Positions 10,353 through 62,866 of a stretch of 64,000 bases of DNA are shown here, in pieces. Made by a program: the position numbers and the translations under genes. Positions within the stretch are counted from its first letter, which is position 1; each line of letters opens with the position of its first letter. Source of the DNA: Axinella damicornis (lineage: Eukaryota; Porifera; Demospongiae; Axinellida; Axinellidae); assembly GCA_963931865.1 (NCBI GenBank), contig OZ007508.1, positions 14,010,781-14,074,780 on the forward strand. The letters are read 5' to 3'. The notes under the pieces were generated by a model. It had not been told where the DNA came from and searched no databases. It saw nothing but the letters and a program-made list of their open reading frames with translations.

Positions 10353-11989
10353 CTACATGTTTATCTGAATGGCAGACAAAGTAGAAAAGATCTCCTCAAA
10401 GTCTGCCCTCTCATCTGGGATATGCTCCCAACATCGCAGCATCAGTTCATAGATCTCTTGCAAGCAACCCTCCGGCTTTGGCAGCAATTGTCGTCCCGTC
10501 CCCTTAATTGCGTTATGAATCACCTCCTGGTCATTGAGCTCATTGTAAGGCTGCTGCTTGCAAAGGCTGAAGACTTCCCACATGGTGACACCGTATGCCC
10601 AAACATCTGTCTTCTCTGAGAATTGACCATAGAAGCTCTCAGTTGGCATCCAGCGAATTGGTAACGTCGCTTTCCCCTGCACACGGTAGTACGAGTCCTC
10701 ATAGAGGCTCCTGCTCATGCCAAAATCTGCAATCTTGACCACATAGTCCTGTCCCACGAGACAGTTCCGGGTAGCCATGTCACGATGGACATATTTGAGT
10801 GATGCCAGATAACGCATCCCACTTGCTATCTGCACCACCACGTAGACCAGAACTGAAGATGAGAGCTGATTTGGCGCGTCCAAAGTTGCTAGTTCATACT
10901 TCTGCAGGTACTGGTTCAGATCTCCATTCTCCATGTACTCCATAACGATAAATGGTGACCCTGATGTACAAATCGCAAGCAGACACACAATATTTTCATT
11001 CTTGAGCCTCGACATGAACTTGATTTCCTTACCAAAAGCTTCACGGACCGACAGCTGGGCATTTGGCTTCAGCTTCTTAACAGCCACTTGGATGCGTACA
11101 TTCTTGCTATCATTGTCATGGCTATGTTTCATGTCCTTTAGGCTCACTCCAACAGTTTCAGCCAACACCACCTCCCCAAACTGCCCGAATCCAAGCCGTT
11201 TAAGCTCATGGATGTTAACAGCTGTGATCTCAATGGGTGCTTCAGATCTCTTCAGAGGTTGCGGCTCAGCGTAGATGGCACCATAGGGATGCAGGTCACC
11301 CTTCCCACTCACACCCCCGTCCTGGCTAAACAACAGGGTGGGGTCAAGAGCTTCACTGTAAATGGGTTCGCTACTTCTGAATGTGGCATTTGGGGTCAGT
11401 TTGCAACCCTTTCGAGGCTCATCGTAAATGTCAAGCCCATTGGGTATGTGCTCGTTATCTTCCTCAGTCATTGGGTTTGAGCCCATTAGCACCGTATTGT
11501 CATAGAGTGTGTCTTCCAGTTCAGTTAGATCAAAGTTTTGTGCTGGGATGGCAGGTGGTGGTTCTTTGTGGACAGCACTGTAGAGTTGCGGTTCAACCGT
11601 TTGTCTCGCTTGCTTTAGATTGTGATCTTCATACTCCGTGTTGTGCAAATCAGACACATCGAAATTTTGTTCTGGGATGGAAGGTGGTGGTTGTTTGTGG
11701 ACAGCGTTGTAGAGATGCGGTTCTGTCTTCCATTCAATGTCATCTGCACTGTGCTTACGTGGTGACGAACCTGACACTGTTTCTGTTGCCATTGCTGTGA
11801 GGTTTGTTATGCCGTTGTCATTTTGTGTCCTCAAATCACCCTTGGTTGCCATCTGCTTGTGCCACCTCAGGAACACCACCACAAGCACAATCACGCCAAT
11901 GACCAGAACACCGATACAGACGAGGGCAATAATCACCACTGCAGCAATAACACCACCACTCAACTGCTCACTAGGATTTGTTGTGCTGC
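10353..11989 (-). CDS. RTK gene 1 exon 5: TM, juxtamembrane and complete tyrosine kinase in one exon
   Basis: The acceptor ATTCCAG|GCAGC joins in frame to exon 4. A TM helix (GGVIAAVVIIALVCIGVLV... to FLRWHK) is followed by two copies of a roughly 34-residue unit with consensus EP-x-LY-x-AVHK-x-PPP-x-IP, then EPIYSEAL and YGAIYAEP. The kinase has GFGQFGEV, VAVKK, EIKFMSRL, MEYMENGDLNQYL, YVHRDMATRN, KIADFGMSRSLY, SYYR and LPIRWM. The APE position reads PTE (WMPTES) instead of the usual A-P-E. The stop is TAG at 10355-10353. An intronless kinase region is a known trait of sponge RTK genes. Confidence 0.93.
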
Positions 11990-14900
11990 CTGGAATTGAC
12001 ATAGGATGTCACACTTGTAACAAGATCGCTGCTAAACTTTTAGAACTCAATTCTGTGACCAAATAATATTATACAAGTTGGCCATACATTTACTCCCATA
12101 GAAACATTTTTCCCCACACTTCTATTGTAGCCCAAAGGCTTCAGATGTTGCACACTTACTAATTAAGCAGCTGTGACGTGCAATTCAACAACCAATCAGG
12201 TCAAGCCCTGTCCTAGTATACCCATGTACATGTCGAATTCACTACACTTTGTTCTCATTAAGTGGTTGCTGTGTGCCTGCTCGCATGGTTTACTGGGACT
12301 TCTTTTATGCCCCTGAACAGAACAAATGCTGTTAGACTGGAACAAAAGCTTGACGAACGTGACAAAGTGATGTCACATACCGTAGAGTGCATATTAAGTG
12401 CACATGGTTTGGGGACATTAGAACGCAGCTGAACAGGGGGGTGGGCGCTGGATATATACGTACTCAGACTAATCATGTAGTAGCCGCCCACTCATTCAGC
12501 ACTGTATAAACCACGTGGGAGTATCAATGACCAGTCATGAGTATAATTATAAGTCCATTTTTCACGTAAGAAAATTGATTGCGCGTAAGTCCTTGAGAAT
12601 TAAGAAGCGCTCGACAGAGAAAGCACGCCGTAGTTCATACTTCATTGTAGATTAGCCTTTTGAATGCACAACCTTACCCAAAGTTTAAGCTAAGTTAGAA
12701 ATGTTGCTCAAGACTTTTGTGATGGTGGACCCTTACTACACTGCTTTTGAACCCTGTGCAGTAACTTTCGCATAAAGAGGGGGGTGGGCGCTTGATACGT
12801 GGTGGGCGCTTGATACATACTCTACGGTAAATGATATTAATCACCATGCCATACTATCACTGTAATTACCTGTTCATGGCTGCTATGTGCACATACCCCC
12901 TGCATGTGCTGTATGTTTGTTAGAACAGCGTGATTCCCTTCTAAAGCCTTCCACTTTGACAATGCAGGTACTCTCAGACAAAGTGCTGACATCTAGTTCA
13001 TTCACTTTGGGGTATGGCTTATCACCCAAATCTCTTCCTTTTGATCATGGAGATAATTATGTGATTAGCATTTAATTTATTGTGCCATCTGGGAATAAAA
13101 CTCATAAAACATGCATTAATTATACAGTGCTTGACTTAGTATAAAAAATGCAGAAATTGCACGGCTTGGCAGTGTAAAAATTCAATCCATGTCTTATTGG
13201 TACCTGAGCAGAGGAGATGCTGTGAGAACTGAAAACACAGTGCATCGCCGATTGTGTATTTTCATGATACTAAAGAGCTTTCTAGACTGTGTACCGCTGC
13301 TGTAGTACAGTAGCCAGCCACTCGGCCAAGAAGATGGTTGGTGAACTAACCTGTGGATCCACCTGATGTCATAGTGGTCCCCGGTGTCTGTCCAGTAGAC
13401 CGACTGCCAGGCATCACTGTCACCTGCGTTGCTGCCTCCTGATCTCCATCTGCATCACAGACGTATCTCCCAGTGTCTGCAGTTTCCAACTGATGGATGG
13501 TTAGGTTGGCTACTATGCTCTGGCGGGTGGTACCATCAGGATTCTGAGCCAGTCGGGATCCATTGCTGTACTCGATTGTGTACTTTGGAGTGTTCTGAAG
13601 CAGTTGACGAGCACCTCCAGTTTCTCTTGACCACCTCACACGGGGACTGTAGGACATCAGGTAGCCGTACACCTCACACGTCAGCACCACCACTCCATCA
13701 TCAGTGTACCCAGTCACCGTATCCTGTGTGTCCACAACCACTGCATGTGAACACAAGAGAGGGAATTGATACTCAATCTCTGTTACATAATACCTACTTT
13801 ATTCTGAGAAATTCCATTATCTATTGAAGAAGAATTAGGGAGGTACTACTGATAAGAACTGCTACAGCTGCAATAACCAGTATATGCACTTGTAGTGATA
13901 ATCAGATCGACTTGTCCTAAAATACTGTCGGTATCTGGTATATGATACAGAATCAATATTAGCAACGAGGTATGTAGGAGAGTAACATTGTTTTATTACA
14001 TGACTATAACAGAACTTGGATGGATTAATACCCGGAATGCTACAATCTGATTGGATATATTTCATGTCGCTAAACAAAATATTTTGCCAAATCCATTCAG
14101 CTTCTTGCTGCATCCATTCAGGGTCATCTCAGGTCAAGTCAACATGAAAAAAAGCATGACCTCTGTCGATTTGGACGAAACTTGGTAAGTTTATTAGGTC
14201 TATTGAAAAACCATTCCACACCAAATTTCAGCTACCTAAGTATACTTGTTCAACTGCAACAAATTTGGCCTCAGGTGCCCGTTTTAGACCGCATGCCATG
14301 ACTGAAATACCAGTATCTTCTGATCTGATCGCTTAGAGAGTTGCAACAAAGATCTTCTCTAAGTTCTTGATGAGCTGTTTCAATTGGCGTATATAAAGTT
14401 CAGAGGTTATGTCATCTGACCTTTGACCTTGGTTTGTGGAAAACGAAAGTTTTGAACCTACATAATAATATTATAACGTTTATTCACAAAGTTTAATTTG
14501 GGACTACACGCAGTGGGAACAGCAAATATACTCCAAAATGTAGTAGACTAGCATGTAAGAAAAATGTGCAGTTAGAATAATATAGATACTTGGTCACTGA
14601 CAGGTTATATAAAGTTGATCCAACAACATCAGCATCTCAGCACTTGGCAATCCTTGCCATCTTCTTTTAGTATCCAGCCTAAGGCAATGCTACAATGCAT
14701 GACCTCTTAAGTCATGCAACTAACCTACTGACTGACCTGTAAGACTATTAACATAAATCCCACCCTTGATAATGACCCCAACAGTCCTTTATAGGCTACT
14801 ACAGTATTTAAGTGTATGCAAGGCGCATCCAATTCTAGTAGTCTGCTTGGTGAATGGTGTTGCAGTTTTGCCAGTACTATCAGTGCTACAATCCCAACTA

Positions 14901-17900: not shown

Positions 17901-20900
17901 ATTTTCATATCTCGAGGCTTCATGCGAAATATACGTAAATTAGCACCGTACGAAAATTTCCCGCTATACAGTATATGACCTGCATGACTATTTATTTATG
18001 CCTGTACCCAACATTTTACATTACGCGTGAAGTGGTCACTTTTCTCAAATCCGCTCACAAATGGTAGGGATGGTACACAAAATTTAATACGTTAGACAGG
18101 GCACAAGTTGGGTATAATTTTGGTACTACACATACAGGTACACTTCAATAGTTTTGTAGGAATCAGTTGAAGTATGATCACACCTATATAATGGAAACCT
18201 CAAGCCATATGCATGTTACCATGGAAACCTCATATGTGGGTGTGGCTAGTAATTACGGCCCACACCAATCACCCCAATCTTAAAGAATATAATATCAAAG
18301 GCGGAGGTGAAGATAACTTTTGCCCACTGTATAACTTTCTATGCATGCTCAGCTGATGGTACTATACATGGAATCATCTACATGAATCGCCAATCACCAA
18401 CAACACTTCTGCTGGACGCCAAAAGTCATCAACATTGAATAGTGCTATGACACATAGCACACTCATAAACAAGCACAAACAGTGAACTCACTTCCATGTA
18501 GCTATTGTCTATTCATACTCCATCCTCCAAGCCATATCCAATAACTTATTTAAACATTGTTCTGTTCTGCCTTCACTCCATCACTTTCCATGTACACAAT
18601 CGGCAGTGTAAAGGTCAAGCATGCACTGCCGTTTGAAATCCACACAGGAGCAGCAACTACCAAAGGTATTGGCTACAGCTATCATCCACTGGGGCCGTCT
18701 GTATTCGGTGGACTGGACTCGGGACTGGACTCGGGACTGGACTGTGGGACTGGACTCACAGAAAGTTGCGCTCGTCATTAAGCTTAATATGCATTTCTGA
18801 AGGCCAGAAACAGGAAATTGCGGAACGGCACTATATAGCTGCCACCGTAGATAATAGCTTACCAAGTACGCGAGGTGTACCAACACAGCTGTCACCATGT
18901 AGACAGCCTGCTGTGGTCCTACCACTGTACCATGCAAAACCAGCTCGACTTCGTTTCGGTGCGAATTCGTCCATGATCTGATGACGATTTCGAGGAACAC
19001 ATGGCGGTCATTGCTAGCAAACTCTTGTATACCAAGTGTTACAACCATTTTGCAGCTTCTTGAACTGCATGCTTCTGCCAAGTTTGGCTGGCGCTTCCGT
19101 TCCTGCTTTCCGCCTGCCTGTGCTGTAGGCCTATAATTATTCATTGTTCTTGTCCCCAGAACATTTCGGTCTGGGAACGAGCCGATTCAGTGCATCGTTG
19201 GCGCACGCGCTCTGACAGAAAGGGCTGATGGAACGGCTGATATCGAGTCATTATCGGCTACCCCGAATGCCATTCATGTCATGTAAGTATTTTAGTAGCG
19301 TTTGATGCTTCAAAATGATGAGCGCAACTTTCTGTGAGTCCAGTCCCACAGTCCAGTCCCGAGTCCAGTCCCGAGTCCAGTCCACCGAATGTTTTGGCGA
19401 ATCACAACTGGCATAGAACTTCAATGAAACACTGGGTCTGCTTACAATCAGAATGGAGTCCTTATATAGAGCAAACACAGGTGGGAGTAACTATACATGG
19501 AGACAACATTCTCAAAACTCATGCAACAATGTTCCATGGTGTCCATTCCCTACAGACAAACTGGTAGACTATACTCTGCTCGTGCATCCTAATGCTCTGT
19601 CATGATCAAACTGTTGCACTCTCATGCATCCTAGTGATCTAACGCCATTATCTTTCTCCGTACACTATATATTCATTTCCGCACTTATTTCTGCACACTC
19701 TCTGTGTAATACCTAATGGGTCTGACTATTACTATGGAAAAAAAAAAGTCGCCCAGTCAATTGGACGACCACGTGAAAAATTGGTCATTCTACGGAAAAT
19801 GTCCAGGGACCACCCATAATGTTGTGCACTGTTCATTTAATGCGTGTCCGCTCTATCCCACCATATAGAGTGATTCCACTCTATGATATTGATCTGACTC
19901 CTGTAAACACAGGCGTGCACAGCAATAAAAGGTTGGGGGGGGGGGGGGGGGGGGGGGGGAGAACATTGGCGGCAAAGTACGGAGGCGCGCAGCGGCCGCA
20001 AAACAGTCACGGGGTGTTGATCAATATTTCGCGCAAAGCGCAAAGCACGGAATTTTTTTTACCCAAGCACGATTTTCAGTTATCAGGAAGCCCTCTGCAG
20101 ACGTTGGCACATTTAGTACCTGGGTCCACAGCTTCAAGTGTCAACGTCCTACGAACTTCGAACTTGCATGAGATTGCACTTCAAAGCTTTGGTTTCGCAC
20201 CTATTATCGTGCAGTGTTATGTATTATCATGCAGCCGTATAGAACCTTGTTATTTCATACCAATTATCGTGCAGAGAGCATCCACAGAGAAAGGTACAGA
20301 AAGGCATGGAAAGGCAGGTAAAGACTGCTGACTGTCTCCAACTTACAGCAAGGGACTGTGCTTCCGTTCACGTTACATAAACTTCCGAATACTTGAGTTT
20401 TATATGGGCTGGGCAGGGCTTTTGGAGCTGTGCGATATAGGTACTGTGCGGTAATCGGTTGCTTATGCCAATAGGAGGCTAGCAATGAAGGAGCTGCTAC
20501 ACTATACTTACGATTGAGTTGAACAGTAATAGGAGTGCTGGCAGAGTGCCCATTGAAGCTGACTTGGCATGTATAGTCCCTTGCATTGGCAGCAGAGATC
20601 TGGGATATCTGCACGATGCTGGTCCTTGTCCCATCAGCAACCCACATATGGGCGAGGGTGATCCCAGATGAAGAGGTCCACTGCCACTTGAAGGAACCTT
20701 CATTGGCCACAGTACAGGAGAGGTTGGCAGCTGTTACGACATTGTCCAGCACAATTGGCTCCATTTGTAGGAATGTGATGTTGGCTGTAGGTTGCATAAC
20801 TAATGAGAGAGGAAAGAAATAACTGTAGTCATTCTTATTACTGTAGGAGTATGTGGGTTGGTCTTCTACACTTGGCCAGCATACACTGTTCCATAAGTCT

Positions 20901-21885
20901 TATTCTCGAATGCCTGACATTCAGCTGCAGTTCAAACAGTTTCCGAGGTGGCGGACAGCCACTACAGATAATGTCAAACTATTCTTGGCAATCACCATAG
21001 CCCATACTGAGGCCGTGTAATACTGCAATGAATGAAAACTGGTCCACCTGAAGGATCATTCAGACAACCAAGGGGGGCTAATTAATTCTTGGCCTGAGAA
21101 GGTATACACATGACATTCAAGGGAGTGCATGCTGCAGTCTCTGGAAAGGCATAGAGAACCACTGATACACACATAGCTACCTGCTTCTCCACAGAGTTGG
21201 ACTTCACTCAGGAGGATCCAGTCTATCAGGCTGGTCTCTGCTGGGAATGTGAAGCGGATGCGTAAGTACTTGTAATCAAGAATGCTATCCTGATCTGTTG
21301 TGACCACCAGTGAGACATTTCGAAGAGTTCTATCATCCTGACTCAGATCCTGGTTGCCAACAATGGCATGAGACAAGGGGTTATATTCCCTCAAGGTATT
21401 ACTCCAGAAGAGCTCAGCAGGAGGCAGTCCAATTCTACTTGATGGAATGTTGTAGAAAAACAGATTAACATGCCTCACTTTAGTTGATGGCGGGATGGTG
21501 AAAGTAATGTTGGCCTCTCTGTCCCATGCAAAGACTTTACTGGTATCGAGTTCTGCACTCCCAGTGTCATTGTCTAACAGTACTACATCACCAGGGCAAC
21601 TGAGAGTACCCAGATTTAGGAAACAGTTTGGACCAGTAGTGGGGCTGTTGTTGTACACAATAGGAATTGGGGTTGAGTCATATCTCACTGGAAACAGAAG
21701 AGAGAATGAGAAGTGGTTCAGTAGTAGCTACATACTAGGAAATGAGTAGGCAGCGCATTAACTGAGCCTGGACTAAACAAAGTAGGTAACGTACTTGGTG
21801 TAGTACATGTGGTAGCTGTTGCTAGGCTGAAGAGAGTATGTGCTGAAATCAACACAAAGATTGCTTTCCGAACTCCACAAAACAT
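10353..21885 (-). CDS. RTK gene 1: DDR-like receptor tyrosine kinase, 5 exons, 970 aa
   Basis: Coding exons are 21885-21795, 21687-21181, 20799-20512, 13740-13351 and 11989-10353, all on the minus strand; they total 2913 nt, an exact 971 codons. All four introns are GT-AG and phase 1. Predicted order: signal peptide (1-30), DS-like module (about 31-199), Ig domain (about 200-295), V-type Ig (about 296-425), TM (about 438-466), juxtamembrane region with two tandem Tyr/Pro repeats, kinase (about 685-967). The receptor should sit in the plasma membrane and phosphorylate tyrosines after ligand-driven clustering; the ligand is unknown. Kinase key residues are present: Lys730, Glu747, HRD Asp829, DFG Asp847, activation-loop Tyr859/Tyr860. 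The kinase resembles DDR1/2 in its HRD...ATRNCLVG, KIADFGMSR and LPIRWM blocks. Splice sites were inferred by comparison with gene 2 and have no transcript support; UTRs are not defined. Confidence 0.88.
11990..13350. other. Gene 1 last intron (V-Ig to kinase exon)
   Basis: 1361-base GT-AG intron that contains the TA-flanked MITE at 12380-12827. Its counterpart in gene 2 (33588-35184) has the same MITE plus a duplicated 100- to 150-base block around 34670-35020. Confidence 0.75.
12380..12827. mobile_element. TA-flanked MITE (CCGTAGAGTnnnTAT ends), gene 1 intron
   Basis: Ends ACCGTAGAGTGCATATTAAG and CTTGATACATACTCTACGGT are inverted, flanked by TA at 12378-12379 and 12828-12829. A copy is in the same gene 2 intron (33978-34434), and an inverted relative disrupted by another element lies near 58036-59036. 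The inside repeats GGTGGGCGCTTGATACGT-type units. Confidence 0.72.
13351..13740 (-). CDS. RTK gene 1 exon 4: V-type Ig domain and short Ser/Thr/Gly stalk
   Basis: This 130-residue exon encodes an Ig domain with VLTCEVYG, VRWSRETG and DTGRYVCDAD (Cys, Trp, Asp-x-Gly-x-Tyr-x-Cys), then a Thr/Ser/Gly-rich linker up to the donor ACAG|GTTAGT. The acceptor is CATGCAG|TGG. It lies 6.8 kb from exon 3 across the largest intron of the gene. The same exon is present in gene 2, but I could not find it in gene 3. Confidence 0.86.
14816..17330 (+). pseudogene. Remnant of a Cys-containing gene (CDDCRKKLSK family), split by a TTAA element, gene 1 intron
   Basis: Reading plus strand through the flanks of the TTAA element gives VCDDCRKKLSKVPLPTPESA, then LSAIVETP, KEKFQETT and EKVQVLTVLPKS, broken by an in-frame TAG before the insertion and further stops after it. 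The wording resembles a family of uncharacterised, repeat-associated proteins of sponges and cnidarians (CRKKLSKLP ... VLTVLPKSW), from memory only. The same stops occur in the gene 2 copy, so the gene was dead before duplication. Confidence 0.45.
15329..17231. mobile_element. 1.9-kb TTAA-flanked foldback element with internal tandem duplication
   Basis: TTAA at 15325-15328 and 17232-17235; the ends GGGTAATTCCAAATCAATTC / reverse complement start roughly 500-base inverted arms (15329 to about 15830, about 16530 to 17231). The centre is two direct copies of a 340-base unit (about 15828-16160 and 16171-16510, including GGAGACTGGGCGTGGCCAAG). The right arm carries an extra 215-base insert (about 16838-17050) with repeated GTTCCGCGTTCC. 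TTAA duplication with purine starts suggests a Kolobok- or piggyBac-type mover. No transposase is present. Confidence 0.78.
17434..17976. mobile_element. TIR element (ATACAGTATAGnGGGAWATTTTCG ends), gene 1 intron
   Basis: Imperfect inverted ends, with arms rich in CGAAAATTT blocks. A CCTCGTTCCCAGGC hairpin sits inside (about 17783-17826). The copy at the same place in gene 2 (37353-37940) shows insertion before the duplication. No coding content. Confidence 0.65.
18703..19390. mobile_element. TIR element with 11-bp iterons in its ends, gene 1 intron
   Basis: The inverted ends (about 75 bases) consist of four tandem GGACTGGACTC-type units followed by CACAGAAAGTTGCGCTC. Gene 2 has no such insert at the matching place near 38755. 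The inside has a long minus-strand frame (to 19144) without a recognisable domain; part of it is simply the repeat (VQSRVQSRVQS). Confidence 0.7.
19936..19960. repeat. Poly-G tract
   Basis: Uninterrupted G run. Similar long G/C runs occur at 4300-4346, 4780-4808, 25346-25368, 27208-27241, 45574-45592 and 54386-54404. Their exact lengths may be assembly-dependent. Confidence 0.8.
20512..20799 (-). CDS. RTK gene 1 exon 3: Ig-like domain 1
   Basis: The 96-residue exon has Ig-fold landmarks: NLSCTVA (strand B Cys), FKWQWT (strand C Trp) and ARDYTCQVS (strand F Tyr-x-Cys), followed by TPITVQLN (strand G). Acceptor CATTAG| and donor AATC|GTAAGT, both phase 1. The exon is 288 nt, the same length as in gene 2. 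Confidence 0.86.
21181..21687 (-). CDS. RTK gene 1 exon 2: DS-like (discoidin-like) beta-sandwich module
   Basis: The acceptor follows a pyrimidine-rich tract ending TTTCCAG; the donor is GCAG|GTAGCT. The 169-residue module has an N-terminal Cys pair (PNCF...LSCPG) and ends with LIDWILLSEVQLCGEAG. A line of the type AW-x-RE-x-NITFT...LRIRFTF...WILLSEV is reminiscent of the membrane-proximal DS-like domain of DDR1/2 (..ITFEF.., ..C.F.FA..W..FSEI..). This domain call is by eye and should be tested by structure prediction. Several NxS/T sites are present. Confidence 0.8.
21795..21885 (-). CDS. RTK gene 1 exon 1: signal peptide
   Basis: ATG at 21885 opens a 30-codon stretch with a basic start (MFCGVRK), a hydrophobic core (AIFVLISAHTLFSLA) and a small-residue end (TATTCTTP), typical of a secretory signal peptide. 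The donor is CAA|GTACGT and leaves one base (phase 1). The reading frame is open upstream, but no earlier ATG is needed, and gene 2 has the equivalent ATG. Confidence 0.82.
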
Positions 21886-31935: not shown

Positions 31936-33587
31936 CTACATGTTTATCTGAATGGCAGACAAAGTAGAAAAGATCTCCTCAAAGTCTGCCCTCTCATCTG
32001 GGATATGCTCCCAACATCGAAGCATCATTTCGTAGATCTCTTGCAAGCAACCCTCCGGCTTTGGCAGCATTTGCCGTCCCGTCCCCTTAATTGCATTTTG
32101 AATCACCTCCTGGTCATTGAGCTCATTGTAAGGCTGCTGCTTGCAAAGGCTGAAGACTTCCCACATGGTGACACCGTATGCCCAAACGTCTGTCTTCTCT
32201 GAGAATTGACCATAGAAGCTCTCAGTTGGCATCCAGCGAATTGGTAACATTGCTTTCCCCCGCACACGGTAGTACGAGTCATCATAGAGGCTCCTGCTCA
32301 TGCCAAAATCTGCAATCTTGACCATGTAGTCCTGTCCCACGAGACAGTTCCGGGTAGCCATGTCACGATGGACATATTTGAGTGATGCCAGATAACGCAT
32401 CCCACTTGCTATCTGCACCACCATGTAGACCAGAGTGGAGGATGGGAGCTGATTCGGCAAAATCACAGATGAGTCCGAAGTTGCTAGTTCATACTTCTGC
32501 AGGTACTGGTTCAGATCTCCATTCTCCATGTACTCCATAACGATAAATGGTGACCCTGATGTACAAATTGCGAGCAGACACACAATATTTTCATCCTTGA
32601 GCCTCGACATGAACTTGATTTCCTTACCAAAAGCTTCACGGACCGACAGCTGGGCATTTGGCTTCAGCTTCTTAACAGCCACTTGTATGCGTACATTCTT
32701 GCTATCATCGTCATAGCTACGTTTCATGTCCTTTAGGCTCACTCCAACTGTTTCAGCCAACACTACCTCCCCAAACTGCCCGAATCCAAGCCGTTTCAGC
32801 TCGTGGATGTTCCCAGCTGTGATCTCAATGGGTGCTTCAGACCTCTTCAGAGGTTGCGGATCAGCGTAGATGGCACCATAGGGATGCAGGTCATTCCCAC
32901 CTTGTGCACCCCTGTCCTGGCTAAACAACTGGGTAGGGTCAAGCGCTTCACTGTAAATGGGTTCGCTACTTTCGAAAGTGGCATTTGGGGCCAGTCTGCG
33001 ACCCTTTAGAGGCTCGGCATAAATGTCAAGCTCATTGGGTGCGTGCTCATAGCTGTGGTTTTCTTCCTCAGTCAGTGGCTTTGAGCCCATTAACACCGTA
33101 TCGTCATAGAGCGTGTCTTCCAATTCAGTCATATCAAAGTTTTGTGCTGGGATGGCAGGTGGTGGTTCTTTGTGGACAGCACTGTAGAGTTGTGGTTCAA
33201 CCGTTTGTCTCACTGGCTTTAGATTGTGATCTTCATACTCCATGTTGTGCAATTCAGTCACTTCGAAATTTGGGATGGAAGGTGGAGGTTTCTTGTGGAC
33301 AGTGCTGTAGAGTTGCGGTTCTGTCTTCCATTCAATATCATCTGCATAGTGCTTATGTGGTGACGAACCTGACACTGTTTCTGTTGCCATTGCTGTAAGG
33401 TGTGTTATGCCGTTGTCATTTTGTGTCCTCAAATCACCCTTGGTTGCCATCTGCTTGTGCCACCTCAGGAACACCACCACAAGCACAATCACGCCAATGA
33501 CCAGAACACCGATAAAGACGAGGGCAATAATCACAGCTGCAGCAATAACACCACCACCCAACTGCTCACTAGGATTTGTTGTGCTGC
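31936..33587 (-). CDS. RTK gene 2 exon 5: TM, juxtamembrane and tyrosine kinase
   Basis: Acceptor ATTCCAG|GCAGC. One exon encodes the TM helix, two Tyr/Pro repeats (TEPQLYSTVHK with PPPSIP; VEPQLYSAVHK with PPPAIP), EPIYSEAL, YGAIYADP and the whole kinase with GFGQFGEV, VAVKK, HRDMATRN, KIADFGMSR, SYYRVRG and LPIRWMPTES. The insert loop before the DE helix reads DSSVILPNQL; gene 1 lacks four of these residues. It ends with the same AIQINM tail as gene 1. Confidence 0.93.
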
Positions 33588-39500: not shown

Positions 39501-42500
39501 GGACAGAACTCTTGAATCTGCCCGAAGGCAGTGGCCATGGTTCAGAATAGTATCCTTGTTGCCAAAATGTAGTGTTTTAGCGAATTGCAACTGGCAGAAC
39601 GTCACGGGTCTGCTTACAATCAGAATGAAATCTTTGTATAGAGCAAACACAGGTGGGATTAAATTAAATTGTGATGCCACACCCGTTTTATTTCCTGTTT
39701 TCGGAGGCACAGCTACGGACACAGCTTTAATATTTCCTTGAAATTGTTTCTTCTATAACACTTTTTCTATCTGATTAGCGTAACCCACCAATTATCGTCA
39801 CCTGAATTTGAATGATTTGCAGCATTGTCTAGGAACGGTTCCAGGACACCAAACTTGCACCGACGTATAGACCGTCACGCCCTCTATAAGCCCTACCACC
39901 GTTAAAGCTGTTACGTATTTCCGGCTTTTAGTGGTGCACTAGCGAATGCAACCTCACGCAAATCAATTATCGGCACCCTGTACGTATTATCGTCACTGCC
40001 TAGTACTCCCATAGATAATCCTGGGTCAATTATCGGCACATGCTGATGGCATCGACTCACCTCCATCCCCTGAAGGCCACAAAAATCCACCACAAATCCC
40101 CCAGGTTCATGACCATTCTATCTATCACCCAGTGAAAAAAAAAACACCAAAGCATGCAACCCCTTCAATATATGAATTTTTAAATAAAATTCGTTCATCA
40201 CACTACACAGTAAAAGCAAAACAATTCTCTTTCTTCCACATACAGTACGTGGCACATTCGTGGAGCCATCTCTTGCACACGCACTCCACCCATTCTGATC
40301 CAGCACAGTCATGCTAGTCGTCCTCAAAAGTCTGAGCAGTGGCAGGAGAGGACCCAAGGTCGCGGTCTCCCCCTACGCTTGTTTTGATTAGACATGAACA
40401 GCCCTACAACATAAAATGGCTAAAAGGACAGTAAATGACATCCAGTTATAACCTTTTAAACAAAGACGAACCTTCTGCAAAGCTTCAGCCTTGTAAACAG
40501 CTTGCGCGACGATGACGTAATGCGAATGGAATCCGTATTTTCGCCGCTTACTCTCCGTTTACTAAGCGCCGATAATTGGTATGTCGGGTGCCGATAATAA
40601 GGTCATGCCGATAATTGGTGGTTTACGCTACTTAATGTCCAGGTCTAATTCATATGTCATTAGAGTAATAAACAAGACCTTCACAGTCTTCAAAATCTTT
40701 CTGTCCACCAAAACAAAACCATTTCTTGTTACTTCGAGGGGCAACCGCACTCCTGGTAGCTGTTGCAACTCCGCGGTTGCCTCGCCGTAGCGCAAGCTAA
40801 TTATTGCAATTTGTTCCAATTAACGCACATGCCACGTGGCAACCACACTCAGTCAAACTCTAGCAATGGCGACCAAAGGGAAGACACGAAACTATAACAG
40901 CACTTACAACCTTGCCAGCACGGTGAGTTTTGGTATGTAACAGTCAGTGAACAACAGCGATTACGGCTGTGTGGTCAGAATCTTTGTGGGCCCTTCGTAT
41001 GACTATACTGGCAACCAACGTCGAAGAGAGCGATCAAGCAATGGCAGCCGACGACACGACAAAAGGGCTTGTATCTCCACCACCAAGGTGAGTTTCAGCA
41101 CAATTATTATGTGATTGTGTCACTGCATGATGGCAATCACGACGGTTTAGTCAGAATCTCTGTAGACCTTTCCTGCGTGTTGTGAGGTTTGATTAGGTTA
41201 TTTAGATTAATTACGTGGCACAATTTTTCCCCTACCAGGAGTGTAATGAGGTCTTGCACAGACAAACCATTCATAGTTCATTCTTCAACTACTACCTAAA
41301 GGATGCCCCAAAAAGGAAATGCTGACTAAGTGCAAAACTCAAATTATGCTAATACAAAACCACATCCTGTTGGGCACCATATGGCACCCTTAACCATTAA
41401 AGGTCATGAAGACTCCTACTTTCGGCAAAGTGTTTCCCTCTCTTCATCATGCAACCTGTTCAGGGCTTCAGGGCTGTACTTCTGGTAAGTCGAGTATGTC
41501 ACTTTTCTTTTCTTTGCGATCGGTGCCAGAACCTCAGCATATTCGCTGGAACTGGCCGTCACTCTCTTCATTCTGCTGTGACACTGGTAACAGCTATTAC
41601 TACCGTCAACCATGGACAAAAAACCGCCCAGTCAATTGGACAACCATGTGGAAAATTGGTCATTCTGTGGAAAGTGTCCAGGGGCCACCCATAATGTTAT
41701 GCACTGTTCATATAATGCGTGTCCACTCTATCCCACCATATAGAGTGATTCCACTCTATGATATTGTGTATTGATCTGACTCCACAGAGGTTGTAAAGAA
41801 CATCTGTGGACATAATATCGTAAGCAACCGATTATCACACAGATTTTGTAACTGGGTCCGCAGCTCCAAGTAGCAACGTCCTACGAACTTCGAACTTACA
41901 TGAACTTGCACTTCAAAGCTTTGGTTTCGTACCTTTTGTCGCGCTGTGTTACATATTATTGTGCAGCTATATAGAACCTTGTTATTTCATACTAATTATT
42001 GCACAGAGAGCATATCCTCTGTTATAAATGAAAAAACTTACAGAGAGAGGCACAGAAAGGCATGGAAAGGCAGGTAAAGACTGCTGACTGTCTCCAACTT
42101 ACGGCACAGGACTGTGCTTCCATTCACGTTATGTAAACTTCCGAATAGTTTAATATGGGCTGGGCAGGGCTTTTGGAGCTGTGCGATAATCGGCTGCTTA
42201 CGCTAATAGGAGGCTAGCGATGAAGGAGCTGCTACACTATACTTACAATTGAGTTGAAGAGCAATGGAAGTGGTGGCAGACTGCCCATTGAAGCTGGCCC
42301 GGCATGTATAGTTCCTTGCATCGGCTGCAGAGATCTGGGATATCTGTACGATGCTGGTCCTCGTCCCATCAGCAATCCACATCTGGGAGAGGGTGATCCC
42401 AGGTGGAGCGGTCCACTGCCACTGGAAGGAACCCTCATTGGCCACAGTACAGGAGAGGTTGGCAGCTGTTACGATATTGTCCAGTACAATTGGCTCCATT

Positions 42501-51400: not shown

Positions 51401-51487
51401 GTCTCGTTCCCAGACCGTTTATCCAGCGTGTGTATCGCTTCCAATAAAAGCGATCCGTCCTGGGGTTGGTTGGGTCTGGGACCGAGA
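51401..51487. mobile_element. 87-bp hairpin of the TAGTCTCGTTCCCAGAC end family
   Basis: TAGTCTCGTTCCCAGACC and GGTCTGGGACCGAGACTA face each other around about 50 bases. Looks like the minimal form of the Mutator-like family at 3396-4179. Confidence 0.55.
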
Positions 51488-51813: not shown

Positions 51814-53537
51814 CTATGGAATGTCGCTATATGCATGTAGGGATGCCAATGAAGACTGGATCTCGTCAAAGTCGGCTCGCTCGATTGGCTCGTGTTCCCA
51901 GCAACGCAGCATGACTTCATATACTTCGGGTGGGCAGTCTTCTGGCCTTGGTAGCAACTGCCTGTCTAGGCCTTTCACGGAATCGTCAATCACTTCTTGG
52001 TCCGTCATCCCTTCGTAAGGCTGTTTCTTGGCAAGCGTGAAGATCTCCCACACAGTCACGCCAAATGCCCAGACATCCGTTTTCTCTGCAAATTGACCAT
52101 AGAAACACTCGTTGGCCATCCACCTTATAGGCAGCAAAACACGGCCCCTGATCTGATAGTAGTCAGAGGAGTAGAGGCTTCTGCTCATGCCAAAATCTGC
52201 AATTTTCACAAGGTAGTTTGCACCAACTAAACAGTTTCTTGTGGCCAGGTCTCTGTGGACAAATCGCAGTGATGCCAAATATTGAATTCCCATGGCTATC
52301 TGCAGGGCCATGTAGAGGAGGGTTGATGGAGGAAGCTGGTTCTCACCGGAGGGAGCTTCTAAGGGTGCTATCTCAAACTTACGCAGGTACCGATTCAGAT
52401 CTCCATTTTCCATGTACTCCATGATAATGAACGGATTCTCAGACAAGCAGATTCCAAGCAAACGAACAATGTTGTCATTGTTGAGACGAGACATGAATTT
52501 AATTTCCTTCTCAAAACCCTCTTTCATGGGTCTTTCTGAATCTAGCTTGAGTTTCTTCAAGGCCACAAGAATTGATATACTCTTATCATCGTCAGAAGTA
52601 CTTAGTTTCAGATCCTTCAAGCTAAGTCCAATGGTCTCCGCCAAAACTACTTGACCAAATTGCCCAACACCTAGATTTCGCTTCTCACGGATTTGCTGAG
52701 CTGTGACCTCCATGGGGCCTTCTGATCTCTTCAATGGCTGAGGATCACAGTAAATGGGTGCATATGGGTACAATTCAGTGTCTGTTGGCGACACAGATCT
52801 GGCTTCTCGGAAGTGAGATGGAGTGATAGACTCACTGTAAATCGGTGCAGGATGGGAAGGTGGGGAGGAGGGCCTGTGAGAACTCGGCGATGGAACTTGT
52901 GAGGGTTCTGCGAAAATGTTGATCTGTCCTGGGCTATCAGCCATATCTAGAGAAGGGGCTCTCCCTGATCTTATATCACCATCAGTACAATCTGCTTGGG
53001 TGTATGAGGGATTGATTTGAGAGTAGGGCTCATGCCTCACCTTTAACAGCACGGGATCTGGTTCTGATGGCTTTGAGGAGATGGAGTTATGCTGATTGTT
53101 CATGTCAACAAGCTCAAGGTGTCCACTGCTACCCCTGTTATCAGCTGTAGTATACGTATCAGTAAAGTAAAGACTATTCGGAAGAGGTGGTGGTGAAGAC
53201 CTTTTCACTTTGGAGTACAATGGCTCTGGAGTATAGTTCTTCTTGTTGAATGTAATTTGAAGTTTTCCATTGCACTGCTTCCACCTGGCTAACATGATAA
53301 CTGCAATGAGAACTACGACTACTATGATTGCTACGATGAGTGCACCAACTACACCCCCTATGATACCCCCTATGATTCCCCCTATGTCACTGGATGAAGA
53401 TGAAGGAAGGGATGTGATTAAAGGGGATGTAATCAAGGAAGGGGACATGATCGAGGGAGGGGACATGATTGAGGAAGGGGACATGATCGAGGGAAGCGAT
53501 GTGATTGAGGGAGTGGAAGAAGGGACCCCATCTGACT
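51814..53537 (-). CDS. RTK gene 3 exon 5: repetitive stalk, TM, juxtamembrane and tyrosine kinase
   Basis: The acceptor CTTACAG|AGTCAG joins in frame to exon 3. The first coding part is a stalk made of six-residue units such as SPSSIM, SPPSIM and SPSLIT (an 18-nt tandem repeat), then SSSSSD and a TM segment that opens with a glycine zipper (IGGIIGGIIGGVVGALI). The juxtamembrane region has EPLYSKVK, EPYSQINPSYTQ (an NPxY motif), PIYSES and YAPIYCDP. The kinase has GVGQFGQV, VALKK, EIKFMSRL, FVHRDLATRN, KIADFGMSR, DYYQ and LPIRWMANE. The two Tyr/Pro repeats of genes 1 and 2 are not present. Confidence 0.92.
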
Positions 53538-56500: not shown

Positions 56501-59500
56501 AGAATCTCCTTTAAGGTTATGGGATATATACTCGTGCGCGTGTCGTGAGAAATGTATTGGGAAATGTATACTTAAGCTCGCTAACCAAGAATCTCTGGTA
56601 CGAACAGCGTGAGCAACTTGATTTTAGAGGTGGAGGGGCGCTGTCACAAGGTGCAGGGCATGATGGAAGCTTTTACCGATATGCTGTATAGCCTTGCAAA
56701 AACTAGCACTTCAGTTTACCAAAAAGCTGTATTTACCGCTTTTCTCGAGCAAGACAGTAGATAAATTTGCCAGGGATTATGCTATCAAAAAAAGCTTCCG
56801 TCATGCCCTGCACCTTGTGACAGCGCACCTCCACCGCCAGAATCAAGTTGCTCACACTCTTCGTACCAGAGATTCTTGGTTAGCGAGCTTAAGTATACAT
56901 TTCCCTATACATTTCGCACGGCGCGCGCACGAGTATCCCATAACTCCAGGTCAACCCAGTCATGCTATACGGAGAAATTCGAGTTGCAACATCATTGATG
57001 TATAATATTAATCCTACATCTATAATATAATAGTTCTATACTATACGGTACGCATATACCACTTGGTTAACCAATCAGATTGGTATTACATTTTTAACGC
57101 ACATGCCACGTGAGGACCATGGTCGGTCGTCAGTCGACGTCCAGATTGATTGAGCTGAGTCAGCAATGGTGGCCCAAGGAAAAGACAAGAAACTCTTACA
57201 GCGCTCACAACTTCGCCAGCACGGTGAGTTTTGGCATGTTAGCGTCAGTGAATGACAGCGATCACGGCCGTGTAGTCAGAATCTTCGTGTGCCTTTCCTA
57301 AGAACGCTACTGCCACCGGAAGTCGGAGAGCGCTCGAGCAATGGCGGCCACGGTGAGACAAAAGCGCTCATAGCTCCATCACCAAGGTGAGTTTCAGGAC
57401 CAAAATTGTACGGTGAGGACAGTGCATGCTAGCGATCACGACGATGCAGTCAGAATCTTTGTAGGCCATTCCTAAGTACTCAAACGTTAATTGTTTACTT
57501 TATTTACGCGGCACAATTTTTCCCCTACCAGGAGTGTAATTACGCGGCACAATTTTTCCCCTACCAGGAGTGAAATTATTTTAGTGAACATCACTTACGA
57601 TTGAGTTGAACAGAAATGTTAGCAGACTTCCCATTGAAGCTGGCTAGACAAGTGTAGTCGCCTGCTGAGATCTGGGATATCTGCACGATGCTGGTCCTTG
57701 TTCCATCAGCAACCCACATCTGGGAGAGGGTGATCCCAGGTGGAGAGGTCCACTGCCACTGGAAGGAACCCTCATCGGCCACAGTACAGGAGAGGTTGGC
57801 AGCTGATACCACATTGTCCAGCCTTGGCAGAAGAATTGGTTCCATAGAGATGAAGGTGATATTGGTTGTAGGTAGGGACACTATTGAGAAAGGAGAATCC
57901 TTATTTCACAATAATCTTTCCTGCAATCTCAGTACAGCAGTTTGTCATTTCGTATTCCTCTCCCCCTCCCACACTTGGCAACATACTCAGAGTCACATGG
58001 TATTAAGCACAACTCACTCATAGGCACATAGCTATTATAGAGTATGTATCAAGCGGCCACCACGTATCAAGCACTCTTCAGGCAAAAGTTCTTCATAGGG
58101 TTCAAAAGCAGTCTGGACCAACCCATCACACAAGTCTTGAGCAGCCATTTCTAAGGTTTTACATTCAGACATTTTAGATTTGCAGTGAAGTATCAACTAC
58201 GGTGTGCTTTCACTACCGAGCGTTTCTTCTCAAAGACTTCACGAAGATGCGCAATCGACTTCTTACGTGGAAAATAACTTATATATATTCATAGCTGGTC
58301 ATTGATATTCCGCAGTGTCTATATAGCGCTTGTTGTGCTAGATGTTCAATGGGTGGGCGGATAGTACATGCTTAATTGGTCTGAGTATGTATCTACCACC
58401 CACCCTGTGTTCTAATGCCCCCAAACCATGGGTGCTTGATAGCCTCGTTCCCAGGTCCCGTCCGAAAAGTCGGAAAGGGGCCTGGTGGTACTTCCATGTT
58501 AAATCTGTCGCTGCTGTACACGTCATCAAACGCGTGCTATGGTAGGACACACCTTATTTCAAACATCAGATCAGCTGACTATCACCGTCACAAAGACTAA
58601 TGTGGAACCCAAGAGAGCGTTGTTTCACAGTATATCGGTTGATCGGGACTCCAGCTAGTGCTGATAGATGGTCGGGAAGTTTGTCGCGATGACCCATAAG
58701 CGTAAACAGCGCTCTCCGATTTCGATCGTCCAGCCATCTCCCGCAAACACGACAGCACTTCTTCACGAAGGAAAGAGACGAAGACGCCGCAGTCTGGAGT
58801 GGCAAAGTAAGCTCTATAATGATCTGCATGGTCCGTTTTGTGCTGTATAATACTAGTCAACACTTTGTCTCACGTGAAGGGATCACGTTCGCGCATGGTT
58901 TCGTTTAGAAATCTGATTGGCTCCTCTTGAATTTGTGAGGCATAGTCGTCAGAAATTATACGGAAGCGCTACCAGGCCCCTTTCTGATTTTCGGATGGGG
59001 CCTGGAACAAGGCTAGGGTGCTTGATACATACTCTACGATATTCGAAATGAAGTGCACTTCCTCATCAAGGAATGTCATTCTCACTTATAGGTGCATATT
59101 TCCTTCATACATGTGAAGATATATAGGTGCATGCGCCTAATCACAAGCAACTATATAATTATGGTAATAGCCTTGTCCCCAGGTTTTAGCCACCTCCAGG
59201 TTTTGATTGCCTGCAGCATGCAAATATTCAAATGTGGAAGAAGAAGGCCAGGGAGATCTGGTCATGTGTGTCGTCAGGTAGACTGATGTGGTAGAAACAC
59301 AGGGGGCAGTCCTCGTCCATACAGTGACAGTGAGTGCACACTCACAGCCTAACCCACGGAAAGCAGTCTCCTCCAAGTCACTAGGCTCAAGTGCAGCATG
59401 CCCGTATAGGAAGCAATTTTCGGTTGGAACGGCAGCGAAAGCTTGAACAGTGTAGGCACTGTTGAAGCATGTTATGCAAGGTTGAAGTGCATGAAGCACA

Positions 59501-62500
59501 TATGTTAGGGGGGTCTGCGTGCATAACTTCTGGGGATGCTCCCCCAGAAAATTTGATGTTCTGAGATTGATTCTGGGTCACTTTTTGCAATATCAGCAAG
59601 GTACTAATTCAGTATACTAGTTGTACGAACTCCACCGATCGTTTTCAACGAATCGGAATGATCCCTGTGGTCATGGAGCATCATGAGATCATGTGTGTCT
59701 GCTACAGAGACTTTATTATAATACAGCAACATCTTATTCTGCTTAAACGCAGTCACACAAGGCAACAAGCGTGGCAGTAAGCCAAGTCATTCGCCTTGGC
59801 ATAGTACAACCAGGCCCACTGATTAAACCAAGACTGCTGGTATGATCGCCATATGATTTTTTTTTCCCCGAAAGCCTGCCTTAGAAAAACGAAATTACTT
59901 TGTATTTCCGCGATCAAACGCCGTCCTTGATTAGAGACCGCCTCTAAAAATAGCCGCACCTCCAGTAGGGATGAACGAAATGAACACTGCATTTGTTTAG
60001 TAGCTGCTGTTATAGCGCTAGTATGTATTGTAATAGCACATCAGTAACCTCACGTGGATGATCGATGGCCGAGTGAAGTGCTTGTCTAGTACTCGAGGAG
60101 GGAAGCGAACGTGACCATTTAGCTGTCAGGATGAAGAGAGGAGAATAGATTGTTGGACATGCACTCCGAGAGCTGTCAAGGAAAGTTTGGCATTTCCTGA
60201 GGCATGGATGGTGATTCACGTGTGACCGGCAAAGCCTTTCACGAAATTAATGGCTCGACAGTTTCCTACCGTTTTTCGTGATGATTAGGGTACTGAAGCA
60301 AAACTTCAAGCTTCTTTTGTCATGCTACATACACAGACTCCAATCCATTTCTGTTAAAAACGCCTTCCTTGATTAGTGGCAGCCCTCGAGATAGTAGCCG
60401 CAGTTAATCACGTGATGAAGGAAATAGTAGCCATTAGAGCTGCAACGATATTGTGTTTGGCTGTATAGATACAAGTGTAAAAAACATTAAAAATGTATGG
60501 AGATGTAGGGATAACAGAACAGCAAAAAGTATGAAAACAAGCAGGGATGATGGCATAAAACAGTTCAGTATACAACACCATCTTACATATCTTTCCCCAT
60601 CCCATAATACATGTATAATGAGAAAAGTATGTAGGGTGTTGTATACTGAACTGTTTTATGCCATCATCCCTGCTTGTTTTCATACTTTTTGCTGTTCTGT
60701 TATCCCTACATCTCCATACATTTTTAATGTTTTTCACACTTGTTTACCTCATTTTTATAGCAGCATACTTGATAGCATTCACTCCGCACACAGTACACAA
60801 TTTTGAGTTCAAAGTTCAAAGTTGCTCTACGCATGCGCACATATGAAGAAAATGGCGTCGCACATGAAGCCATAGTTATCGAGTGGGCGGTTTCAAGCGC
60901 CTCGTGAGACTTCGAAGTAGCCAAAAAGCGATGGGGTCGCGCACTGCTCAGTGTAAAATGCTGCTGTTTTGAGCAAACACCGTCGTGAGGGAGTCAGCCA
61001 AATTTGAACTAGCCCGTCTGAAGAAAGAAGAAGAAGAAAACCGATTTTGGCGGTTTGGCGACTTTTTGGCGCGGTACTTTCGCGACGGTTATTCATGACA
61101 CTGGGAGTCTTCTGGGCCAGGAAAACACTCGAAGACGAATAGTAAGTTGTCATAAAGGCTTATTTGCCGCCCGTTTTTGAGATTTGGAGAGATTTGGGAA
61201 GATTTTTTTGTATTAGCTTCAATTACGTGTCCGTTGTATCCCTACATATAGAGTCTACCGACTCTATGATATTGCACCTGATGTATTGCGATATATTGAC
61301 GTATTGCGATACACCGACATATGTTAAGCTGAAGGACAGGTCAGAGTGAGGAATGTATGAAAGAGGTCGTTACTGTCATTACAACTCCATGTTTACAAGT
61401 GATGCCGTTTTGGATGGGTATTGAAATTTTAAAATCGATATATTGCGATATATCACGATATTTCGATATATCAATACTGTAATAGGATGTATTGATATCA
61501 TATTGTGACTGTCAGTATTGCGATATATCGATATGCCGATATATTGTTGCAGCTCTAGTAGCCATGGCATTTGATCGTGAAAAATGGTACCAGACAGCTG
61601 GTGAGGAGTCCTTTAGAAGAAAGATCCAGCACAACAAGCCGAACTGCATGCATGCATGACATTTTGAGTGCCCCCATGTGGGTGCCACACTCCCAATTGT
61701 ATATCTAGCTCAAATTATAAGGCGACGAAAAAAAGTGGTATGGCCTCAAACCTACCAACCATACCAGCCATGCACACTGGCCCACACACACACAGACACA
61801 CACACAGACACAGGCTCTTTTGGCTAGAAAATGTAGTCCAGGGGGACCGGTGCAGCAACTGTCATGGAAGATTGGCGCTCATGAGTGGTAGCCAAGAGAG
61901 CCACTTTTCATTCAGTGATCTGTACTTTCCACAGAACCTTTAAAATGCAGTCTATGGCGATTCATTCCAGGGCTGTGCCTACTTTACATTGCTGATGGCA
62001 ATTGCAGCCTACAGTTTTGTCACTGACAAAGTTAAGGCACTAGAACTGGTAGATCTAGACCTGCTCACAATGCATCAACAGTATAGTCATGGAAGGAAAC
62101 TTTGCATGGAGAGCTAGCTGTAAACCCACTGGCAGTACACACTCATGAAGTATTTGTTATCCACATTCATGGTGGTAGTGGTGACACTCAATTCACTATT
62201 TCCACATTGGTGGTGGGAGAGGGTGGAGGTGGCATAAAGCCACTACAGATATTGCTAATGCCTATCAATTACCATACTTATGCTATCACACTGAGGCTGT
62301 ATATAATACACTGATATACACATGCATACCTGCTTCTCCACCACAGAGTTGGATTTCACTCAGGAGGATCCAGTCTATCAGGCTGGTCTCTGCTGGGAAT
62401 GTGAAGCAGATGCGAAAGTATCTGTAATCAGGAATGCTATCCTGATCTGTTGTGACCGCCAGTGAGACATTTCGAAGAGTTCTATCATCCTGACTCAGAT

Positions 62501-62866
62501 CTTGGTTGCCAACAATGGTATGAGACAAGGGTCCATCTGGTTTGAAGAGATTGGTATCACTCCAGAAGAGCTCAGCAGGAGGCAGTCCAATTCCACTTGA
62601 TGGGATGTTGTAGAAGAACAGATTCACTTGCCTCACTTTAGTCGGTGACATGACAGGAAAGGTGAAAACAATGTTGACCTCTCTGTCCCACGCAAAGACT
62701 TTACTGGTATCGAGTTCTGCACTCCCAGTGTCATTGTCTAACAGTACTACATCACCTGGGCAACTGAGTATACCAATATCTGTGAAACAGCTTGGAACAG
62801 TAGTGGGGCTGTTGTTGTTCGCAATAGGAATTGGATTTGGGGTTATGGTATACGTGCTCACTGGTA
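51814..62866 (-). CDS. RTK gene 3: diverged DDR-like receptor tyrosine kinase, partial (signal exon not in window)
   Basis: Visible coding exons are 62866-62330, 57880-57599 and 53537-51814, totalling 2543 nt; one base from a missing upstream exon completes 848 codons. All junctions are phase 1. The protein has the DS-like module and one Ig domain, then goes straight into a Ser/Pro/Ile/Met repeat stalk, TM and kinase; the V-type Ig exon of genes 1 and 2 was not found between 53.5 and 57.6 kb. The kinase keeps all catalytic residues and is closer to DDR wording than genes 1 and 2 (RFVHRDLATRNCLVG, SDYYQIRG, LPIRWMANE). The tail (SLHAYSDIP) is unlike the other two. The signal exon is either beyond 64000 or lost. 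Confidence 0.83.
54525..55180. repeat. Repeat family R, inverted copy in gene 3 intron
   Basis: Reverse orientation: begins ATTACACTCCTGGTAGGGGA and ends GGAGTGCGGTTGCCCCTCGA. Contains both GATCACGGC-type blocks. Extra sequence near 55000-55130 is not in the other copies. Confidence 0.62.
55692..56262. repeat. Repeat family R, plus-orientation copy and a truncated second start
   Basis: 55692-56165 follows the family order. At 56188 a second family start (GAGGGGCAACCGCACTCCTG) runs only to the GCGCAAGCTAGGTATTG block, then breaks off into the LINE fragment. Confidence 0.6.
56289..56520 (+). pseudogene. LINE-type reverse transcriptase fragment
   Basis: One frame reads SDDMTLYRTIYDQADYNILQ, then ISQWVDDNYLTLHTGKACLM, as in the RT palm region just after the catalytic YADD of CR1/L2-like elements (here S-DD). 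It is cut at its 3' side by the foldback at 56519-56954 and at its 5' side by the R repeat start. Confidence 0.66.
56519..56954. mobile_element. Foldback element inserted in the LINE fragment
   Basis: Arms of about 165 bases (starting TTAAGGTTATGGGATATATA on the left; right arm inverted) contain GGTACGAAnAGnGTGAGCAA and CAAGGTGCAGGGCATGANGG. The end resembles the TTAA element at 63031-63730 (TTAAGGTTACGGGATACC). The internal frame is a by-product of the arms. Confidence 0.65.
57092..57576. repeat. Repeat family R copy ending beside the gene 3 Ig-exon donor
   Basis: The copy begins at the TTAACGCACATGCCACGTG block. Its 36-base end (TTACGCGGCACAATTTTTCC...) is tandemly doubled. It stops about 22 bases short of the GTAAGTG donor of exon 3 on the other strand. 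Confidence 0.6.
57599..57880 (-). CDS. RTK gene 3 exon 3: Ig-like domain
   Basis: 282 nt; Ig landmarks are NLSCTVA, FQWQWT and AGDYTCLAS. Acceptor CAATAG|TGTCC, donor AATC|GTAAGTG. An interspersed repeat copy ends only about 22 bases beyond the donor, so the start of the intron consists mostly of repeat DNA. Confidence 0.85.
58439..59008. mobile_element. Mutator-like element with 10-bp target duplication (TAGCCTCGTTCCCAGG ends)
   Basis: Inverted ends of about 50 bases (TAGCCTCGTTCCCAGGTCCC; right end GGGGCCTGGAACAAGGCTA), flanked by GGGTGCTTGA on both sides. Same end family as the RecQ-carrying elements at 3396-4179 and 5042-5646. The cargo is a Cys-containing frame on the minus strand. Confidence 0.75.
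58566..58829 (-). pseudogene. Cys/zinc-finger-like fragment inside the Mutator-like element
   Basis: The frame includes FVKKCCRVCGRWLDDRNRR, then ALFTLMGHRDKLPDHLSALA; a CRVCG followed by an RRALF and amphipathic segment resembles the N-terminal part of ZAD-like zinc modules, from memory. The second Cys pair is not seen, and the frame crosses no intact start context. Treated as a captured fragment, not a gene. Confidence 0.35.
60435..61557. mobile_element. hAT-type non-autonomous element, 1123 bp, 8-bp target duplication
   Basis: Ends TAGAGCTGCAACGATAT and ATATTGTTGCAGCTCTA are inverted; perfect 8-bp duplication GTAGCCAT at 60427-60434 and 61558-61565. The right third is rich in CGATATATCG-type repeats (61430-61550). 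No transposase. A 250-base palindrome is nested near the left end. Confidence 0.82.
60475..60745. mobile_element. Near-perfect palindromic element nested in the hAT element
   Basis: Arms of about 110 bases (AAAACATTAAAAATGTATGG ... CAGTTCAGTATACAACACC) face each other around a short centre, so both strands give almost the same frame. Half copies lie in the 5' flanks of gene 1 (about 22438-22530) and gene 2 (about 45670-45711). Confidence 0.7.
61783..61812. repeat. CA/CAGA microsatellite
   Basis: ACACACACAGACACACACAC-type run in the gene 3 intron. Confidence 0.85.
62330..62866 (-). CDS. RTK gene 3 exon 2: DS-like module
   Basis: Acceptor TTTCCAG|TACCAG, donor GCAG|GTATGC, phase 1 at both ends. 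Conserved blocks: SCFTDIGILSCPGD, AWDREVNIVFTF, FFYNIPSSGIGLPPAELFW, GNQDLSQDDRTLRNVSLAVT, LIDWILLSEIQLCGGEAG. The intron on its 3' side retains sequence seen in intron 2 of genes 1 and 2 (AAGCCACTACAGATATTGC region), which supports common descent of the three genes. Confidence 0.82.

Follow-up and report, generated by a model that had tools for sequence, protein, structure and literature searches.

The 64,000-nucleotide stretch of the Axinella damicornis genome studied here (the window; C4:14010781-14074780 of a 226 Mb genome, in the single assembly analyzed) is, we think, probably part of a complex of about 1 Mb of sponge receptor tyrosine kinase (RTK) genes of the DDR lineage, which would feed many recognition specificities into one pathway. 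Three minus-strand genes in the window combine a DDR-like kinase with a DS-like module and one or two immunoglobulin (Ig) domains. A preceding sequence-only reading had described these genes, and open reading frames (ORFs), splice sites and Pfam matches bear it out; the motifs it quoted occur in the translations. The predicted receptor plan is a signal peptide, a DS-like domain, up to two Ig domains (none in some copies), a transmembrane (TM) segment, a tyrosine-rich juxtamembrane region and an active-looking kinase.

Kinase phylogeny places the family within the DDR clade, as the sequence-only reading had proposed. PF07714 was matched in all three window kinase exons (267-274 bits; Pfam scan of 10 exon ORFs), and the top PDB matches of the gene 1 kinase were DDR2 (283 bits) and DDR1 (at most 275 bits alone, 279 in a DDR2/DDR1 chain), ahead of a single chain labeled EGFR in its deposition (238) and of TrkB (218). 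In a 46-row tree, DDR1, DDR2 and 32 family rows (15 from the array, L007, which also belongs to it, and 16 database proteins) formed one clade (100/96), inside which the family rows were themselves a clade (100/99); in a 22-row tree the DDR plus family clade received 100/99. Both trees were built without cnidarian, placozoan, ctenophore or Geodia kinases. On the 22-row tree, the approximately unbiased test rejected topologies that join the family instead to TrkA (p 0.0026), MuSK (p 0.0013), ROR1 (p 0.0002) or IGF1R (p 0.018); these were the four alternatives tried, and FGFR1 was not among them. The VA[VIL]KK motif and the glycine loop are kept in 15/15 long kinase ORFs (>400 aa, from a contiguous stretch of 280 kb, chosen by HRD and DFGMS). 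Counted without a shuffle control, the juxtamembranes of these ORFs carry 1 to 14 YxxV/L/I motifs each, and nine of the 15 carry NPxY, a motif also present in DDRs.

Genes 1 and 2 are predicted to close in five exons (970 and 989 aa) with no internal stop, GT/AG splice sites and all introns in phase 1; gene 3 has DS-like, single-Ig and TM-kinase exons with phase-compatible splice sites and its leader beyond the window end (Table 1); the exon structure and frame closure reported earlier are thereby upheld. Symmetric phase-1 exons allow modules to be exchanged with the frame kept. The kinase region is a single intronless exon of 1.6-1.7 kb in the window genes. In the Pfam scan, Ig_3 was matched by both Ig exons of gene 1 and both of gene 2 (E 4.8e-4 to 2.8e-6). 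For gene 3 a second Ig exon (IgB) was looked for and none was found, and its kinase comes from an older, separate branch of the family, with saturated synonymous divergence (dS) of the kinase domain. Leaders resembling the gene 1 signal peptide occur in gene 2 and in other array genes.

No discoidin domain was found, in agreement with another inference of the sequence-only reading. No F5/8 type C match at E<=1 was obtained in the 10 exon ORFs scanned with Pfam, and only 107 bp separate exons 1 and 2 of gene 1; a genome search with PF00754 gave four weak exon hits, none on C4, and introns may conceal others. The array appears to encode receptors lacking the collagen-binding N-terminal domain of the DDRs. 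Exon 2 had no Pfam family match at E<=1 in any of the three genes. Among 50 rows compared with its predicted fold, the DDR1 DS-like domain ranked first both by Z and by length of the alignment, and Foldseek, also over 50 rows, gave DDR1 DS-like the highest TMq (0.60 vs 0.41 for EphA7).

The tandem array inferred in the sequence-only reading is real; its extent is far larger than the window. Counts from our own-genome searches are lower bounds, and the kinase search scored 138 of 905 candidates. At least 20 stop-free DDR-like kinase domains, all on the minus strand, lie in C4:13.804-14.127 Mb, together with three broken ones (C4:13895k, 13933k and 14099k); among the candidates scored, the array supplies 24 of the 37 kinase matches at E<=1e-20, the remaining 13 lying elsewhere at <=49% identity. 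Type-1 (gene-1-like) DS-like exons gave 32 matches, including at least nine open minus-strand exons (13.986-14.135 Mb) and at least 11 open plus-strand exons (13.355-13.515 Mb). There are at least 15 type-2 matches, 14 on C4 and one on C12 (C12:3077056-3077562, the sole DS-like match off C4 among the matches listed), and at least four full type-3 matches plus two weak ones to type 1. IgB exons (43/43 matches) and IgA exons (39/41) are concentrated on C4, and related ectodomain exons together cover C4:13.098-14.135 Mb. Between 13.1 and 13.80 Mb no kinase match was found among the candidates scored; on the plus strand, a short piece of a kinase is present at 13.830 Mb. Genes without a kinase but with similar outer exons cluster beside the kinase genes. 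In ORF-only models, the plus-strand gene L035 has a DS-like domain, five IgA-IgB pairs, a TM segment and a short tail with LAYKPV, and in a plus-strand unit at 13.8415 Mb DS-IgA-IgB precedes an ORF that contains a TM segment and VVYEEV; we call these tails similar to immunoreceptor tyrosine-based inhibitory motifs (ITIMs) by consensus match only. The leader of the gene after L035 is similar by eye to the window leaders.

Ectodomains on the minus strand fall into several classes, with DS-IgA-IgB in some genes and DS-IgA in gene 3. The genes whose kinases lie at C4:13847428, 13852640, 13868415, 13881047, 13900968 and 13937515 carry a DS-like domain, no Ig found by our profiles and serine/threonine/proline-rich stretches upstream of the TM segment. 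The Dysidea avara protein P0120 resembles this class: it matches part of the DS profile at E 3e-11, and Pfam shows no Ig in it. DS-like domain, TM segment and kinase thus look like the common core, to which Ig domains would be a later or variable addition.

The array genes have arisen by tandem duplication and have exchanged exons. Below, A to D denote the array genes whose kinase exons lie at C4:13919020, 13964048, 13977640 and 13998509, E to G denote window genes 1-3, and H is the kinase-less unit at 13841493. For E and G, dS is 0.136 (0.070-0.226) in the DS exon and 0.203 in IgA, with the kinase saturated (lower bound 2.4). For A and E, the DS exon is saturated, and dS is 0.046 (0-0.112) in IgB and 0.332 in the kinase. 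For C and E, dS is 0.155 (0.082-0.250) in the DS exon vs 0.040 (0.012-0.075) in the kinase. An A-F clade excluding G was rejected by the DS data (p 1e-57) and a C-G clade by the kinase data (p 9.7e-6), the groups having been chosen after earlier results were seen. Neighbors D and E have 15.35 kb in common (98.9% identity), so the duplication is recent. Protein change is also faster outside the cell than in the kinase: pooled omega (Nei-Gojobori counting over the three non-independent pairs C-E, C-F and E-F, with D, A, B, G and H excluded) is 0.81 for DS, 0.74 for IgA, 0.91 for IgB, 0.51 for the juxtamembrane and 0.24 for the kinase, and the part was not above the kinase in 3, 22, 3 and 85 of 2000 column bootstraps, respectively.

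Several observations weigh against our proposal. Omega values lie near 1 but for the most part under it, a pattern that relaxed constraint fits as well as diversifying selection, and variable DS sites are not significantly enriched in loops (p 0.16, 24 rows). The frame break in the kinase exon of copy D and the three further broken kinases are expected also from plain birth-and-death. A tandem family that grows by unequal crossing-over, with gene conversion mixing the exons and the ectodomains drifting under relaxed constraint, all copies serving one redundant developmental or matrix-sensing job rather than recognizing variable ligands, would account for the broken copies, the omegas mostly below 1 and the D/E duplication, and we regard it as a real, if lesser, possibility. 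It sits less well with the low omega of the kinase, the motifs kept in all 15 kinase ORFs, the at least 20 type-1 DS-like exons that remain open and the reappearance of the same outer exons in a separate kinase-less cluster.

The identity of exon 2 is a further point of difficulty, since it depends on a predicted fold. The Pfam DDR1-2_DS-like profile had no genome match, the controls giving no signal either; profiles from 16 and 70 sequences retrieved no DDR chain from the PDB; 8pe9 ranked only 13th by Foldseek E-value; and in a weaker second model of exon 2 DDR1 was level with several folds. The structural likeness anticipated by the sequence-only reading is seen by Z and TMq, not by E-value rank or in the second model. 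Exon 2 could instead be a galactose-binding-like domain recruited independently (carbohydrate-binding or Eph-LBD-like) onto a DDR-type kinase. We consider this unlikely, given that DDR1 leads the two 50-row comparisons by Z and by TMq, respectively, and that the kinase carrying the domain falls with DDR on independent evidence; shared ancestry with the DS-like domain of DDR is the reading that we favor. It is more doubtful still that the mosaics are artifacts in which DS-like and Ig exons were assigned to a neighbor's kinase. The gene models are predictions from sequence, the gene 3 kinase exon lies 4 kb from its Ig exon and IgB is missing. However, the gene 3 exons, including the outside leader, lie on one strand, in order and in compatible phase, and the compact genes A and B (~5 kb), in which a single open frame covers DS and IgA, are similarly incongruent.

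If the array is indeed an RTK complex of the DDR lineage, its mode of action might follow general RTK biology, in which ligand-driven clustering leads to trans-phosphorylation and SH2/PTB recruitment. The DS-like/Ig side would bind surface or matrix ligands, clustering would activate the kinase through trans-phosphorylation of activation-loop tyrosines, and the juxtamembrane tyrosines (YxxV/L/I, NPxY) would bring in SH2/PTB adaptors. Kinase-less members might conceivably act as decoys, ligands/partners or dampers. In this way the array could supply many recognition specificities to one pathway, and self/non-self recognition is perhaps the likeliest use of such diversity. A more specific version seems improbable to us at present: a recognition complex for self/non-self or microbes, with kinase-bearing activating and kinase-less, ITIM-like-tailed damping receptors assembled from leader, DS-like and Ig exons of the same kinds and diversified by exon exchange, as an RTK counterpart of paired immune receptors derived from the DDR lineage after loss, or before gain, of the discoidin domain.

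Table 1. Predicted exons of the three window genes (window positions unless stated).
Feature	Position	Strand	Remarks
Gene 1 exon 1, signal peptide (MFCGVRKAIFVLISAHTLFSLATATTCTTP)	21795..21885	-	ATG, hydrophobic leader, phase-1 GT donor
Gene 1 exon 2, DS-like (galactose-binding-like) domain	21181..21687	-	
Gene 1 exon 3, Ig domain A	20512..20799	-	Ig_3 E 4.8e-4
Gene 1 exon 4, Ig domain B and S/T/G-rich stalk	13351..13740	-	Ig_3 5.8e-6, V-set 7.5e-6
Gene 1 exon 5, TM, juxtamembrane with repeated tyrosine motifs, complete intronless tyrosine kinase	10353..11989	-	PF07714 274.3 bits; best PDB matches DDR2, DDR1
Gene 2 exon 1, signal peptide	45088..45181	-	
Gene 2 exon 2, DS-like domain	44453..44971	-	76% identity with its gene 1 counterpart
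Gene 2 exon 3, Ig domain A	42247..42534	-	Ig_3 match
Gene 2 exon 4, Ig domain B and stalk	35185..35601	-	Ig_3 match
Gene 2 exon 5, TM-juxtamembrane-kinase	31936..33587	-	PF07714 match
Gene 3 signal-peptide exon, 1.2-1.3 kb past window end	~C4:14076010-14076108 (~window 65230-65328)	-	Matching leader
Gene 3 DS-like exon	62330..62866	-	80% identity to gene 1 DS-like
Gene 3 Ig domain A	57599..57880	-	Found by similarity to other Ig exons, outside Pfam scan
Gene 3 TM-juxtamembrane-kinase exon	51814..53537	-	49% identity to gene 1/gene 2 kinase exons

Other features of the array deserve mention. A series of kinase-less IgA-IgB-like pairs occupies C4:13811349-13828333 (+; L010-L012), within which the ORF C4:13820687-13821403 has an Ig domain, a TM segment and a tyrosine-rich tail. 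Two pairs of kinase domains lie ~2-3 kb apart (C4:13803997-13807557, L009-L010, and C4:14108724-14111612), with no DS-like exon seen inside the first; paired kinases may be partial duplicates or may share one ectodomain via alternative splicing. Broken kinase copies sit among open ones at C4:13933225-13934089 (L022) and C4:13895425-13896560 (L019). ORFs resembling by eye a RecQ-type helicase and an adjoining mobile-element protein lie inside the array at C4:13958275-13960850 (+; L025).

Published views, as far as the portions consulted go, conflict on DDRs outside Bilateria: one study detected DDR1/2 in none of its compared species but human and fly (PMC5395295), and DDR kinases were placed as emerging in Bilateria, with the FA58C domain earlier, in another (PMC8662651), whereas clear DDR orthologues were described in sponges and ctenophores in a third (PMC6485061). 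Receptors that combine a DS-like domain with a kinase of the DDR clade and lack discoidin, found here and among the proteins of two other sponges, suggest that the DS-like/kinase core is older than the collagen-binding domain, or that discoidin was lost in sponges. With its conserved kinase and its outer modules that vary and are swapped between neighbors, the array is a candidate locus for cell recognition in an animal from one of the earliest branches. To our knowledge, how sponge tissues recognize each other at the molecular level is still open, and a clustered, exon-shuffled complex of Ig receptor kinases offers a concrete candidate locus for genotyping sponge fusion and rejection.

Like DDR1 and DDR2, the array receptors have a kinase of the DDR clade and a single-pass RTK plan with a long tyrosine-rich juxtamembrane, and the predicted fold of exon 2 has the DDR1 DS-like domain as its top match by Z. 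Unlike them, they have no N-terminal discoidin (F5/8C) domain, carry Ig between the DS-like domain and the TM segment in many copies and encode the kinase in one exon; humans have two DDR genes, whereas the array has at least 20 open clustered kinase copies. Botryllus fuhc and Hydractinia Alr, recognition loci of other invertebrates, resemble the array in being physically clustered genes for membrane proteins with variable outer domains, which are not known to be DDR-type kinases. The array appears to be a variant of the known sponge 'class II RTK' family. The Geodia cydonium RTK has, in the parts of the sources consulted, an Ig-like ectodomain (PMC12018476; for the Ig superfamily in sponges, PMC11999971) and introns only outside the kinase domain (PMC5793068), and both features are found here, Ig-like domains in genes 1 and 2 though not in all paralogues. 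Those same parts describe it as a single gene (Schaecke 1994; Gamulin 1997) and mention no DS-like module, DDR placement, gene complex or exon exchange. P0120 is named 'class II receptor tyrosine kinase-like' by NCBI, and this protein and the similarly named P0049 fall inside our kinase clade. P0049, named as a protein of the snail Gigantopelta aegis, is placed next to the Ephydatia protein by the kinase tree (97/94) and is possibly sponge contamination of the snail genome, or a lateral event. That Ephydatia protein, Em0016g28a (P0001; presumably Ephydatia muelleri, from the 'Em' of its name), is the sole one of 7,996 scored candidates to match the ectodomain at E<=0.01 (37% identity, with 88% of the query covered) and, like the array receptors, has a DS-like domain, two Ig domains, a TM segment and a kinase.
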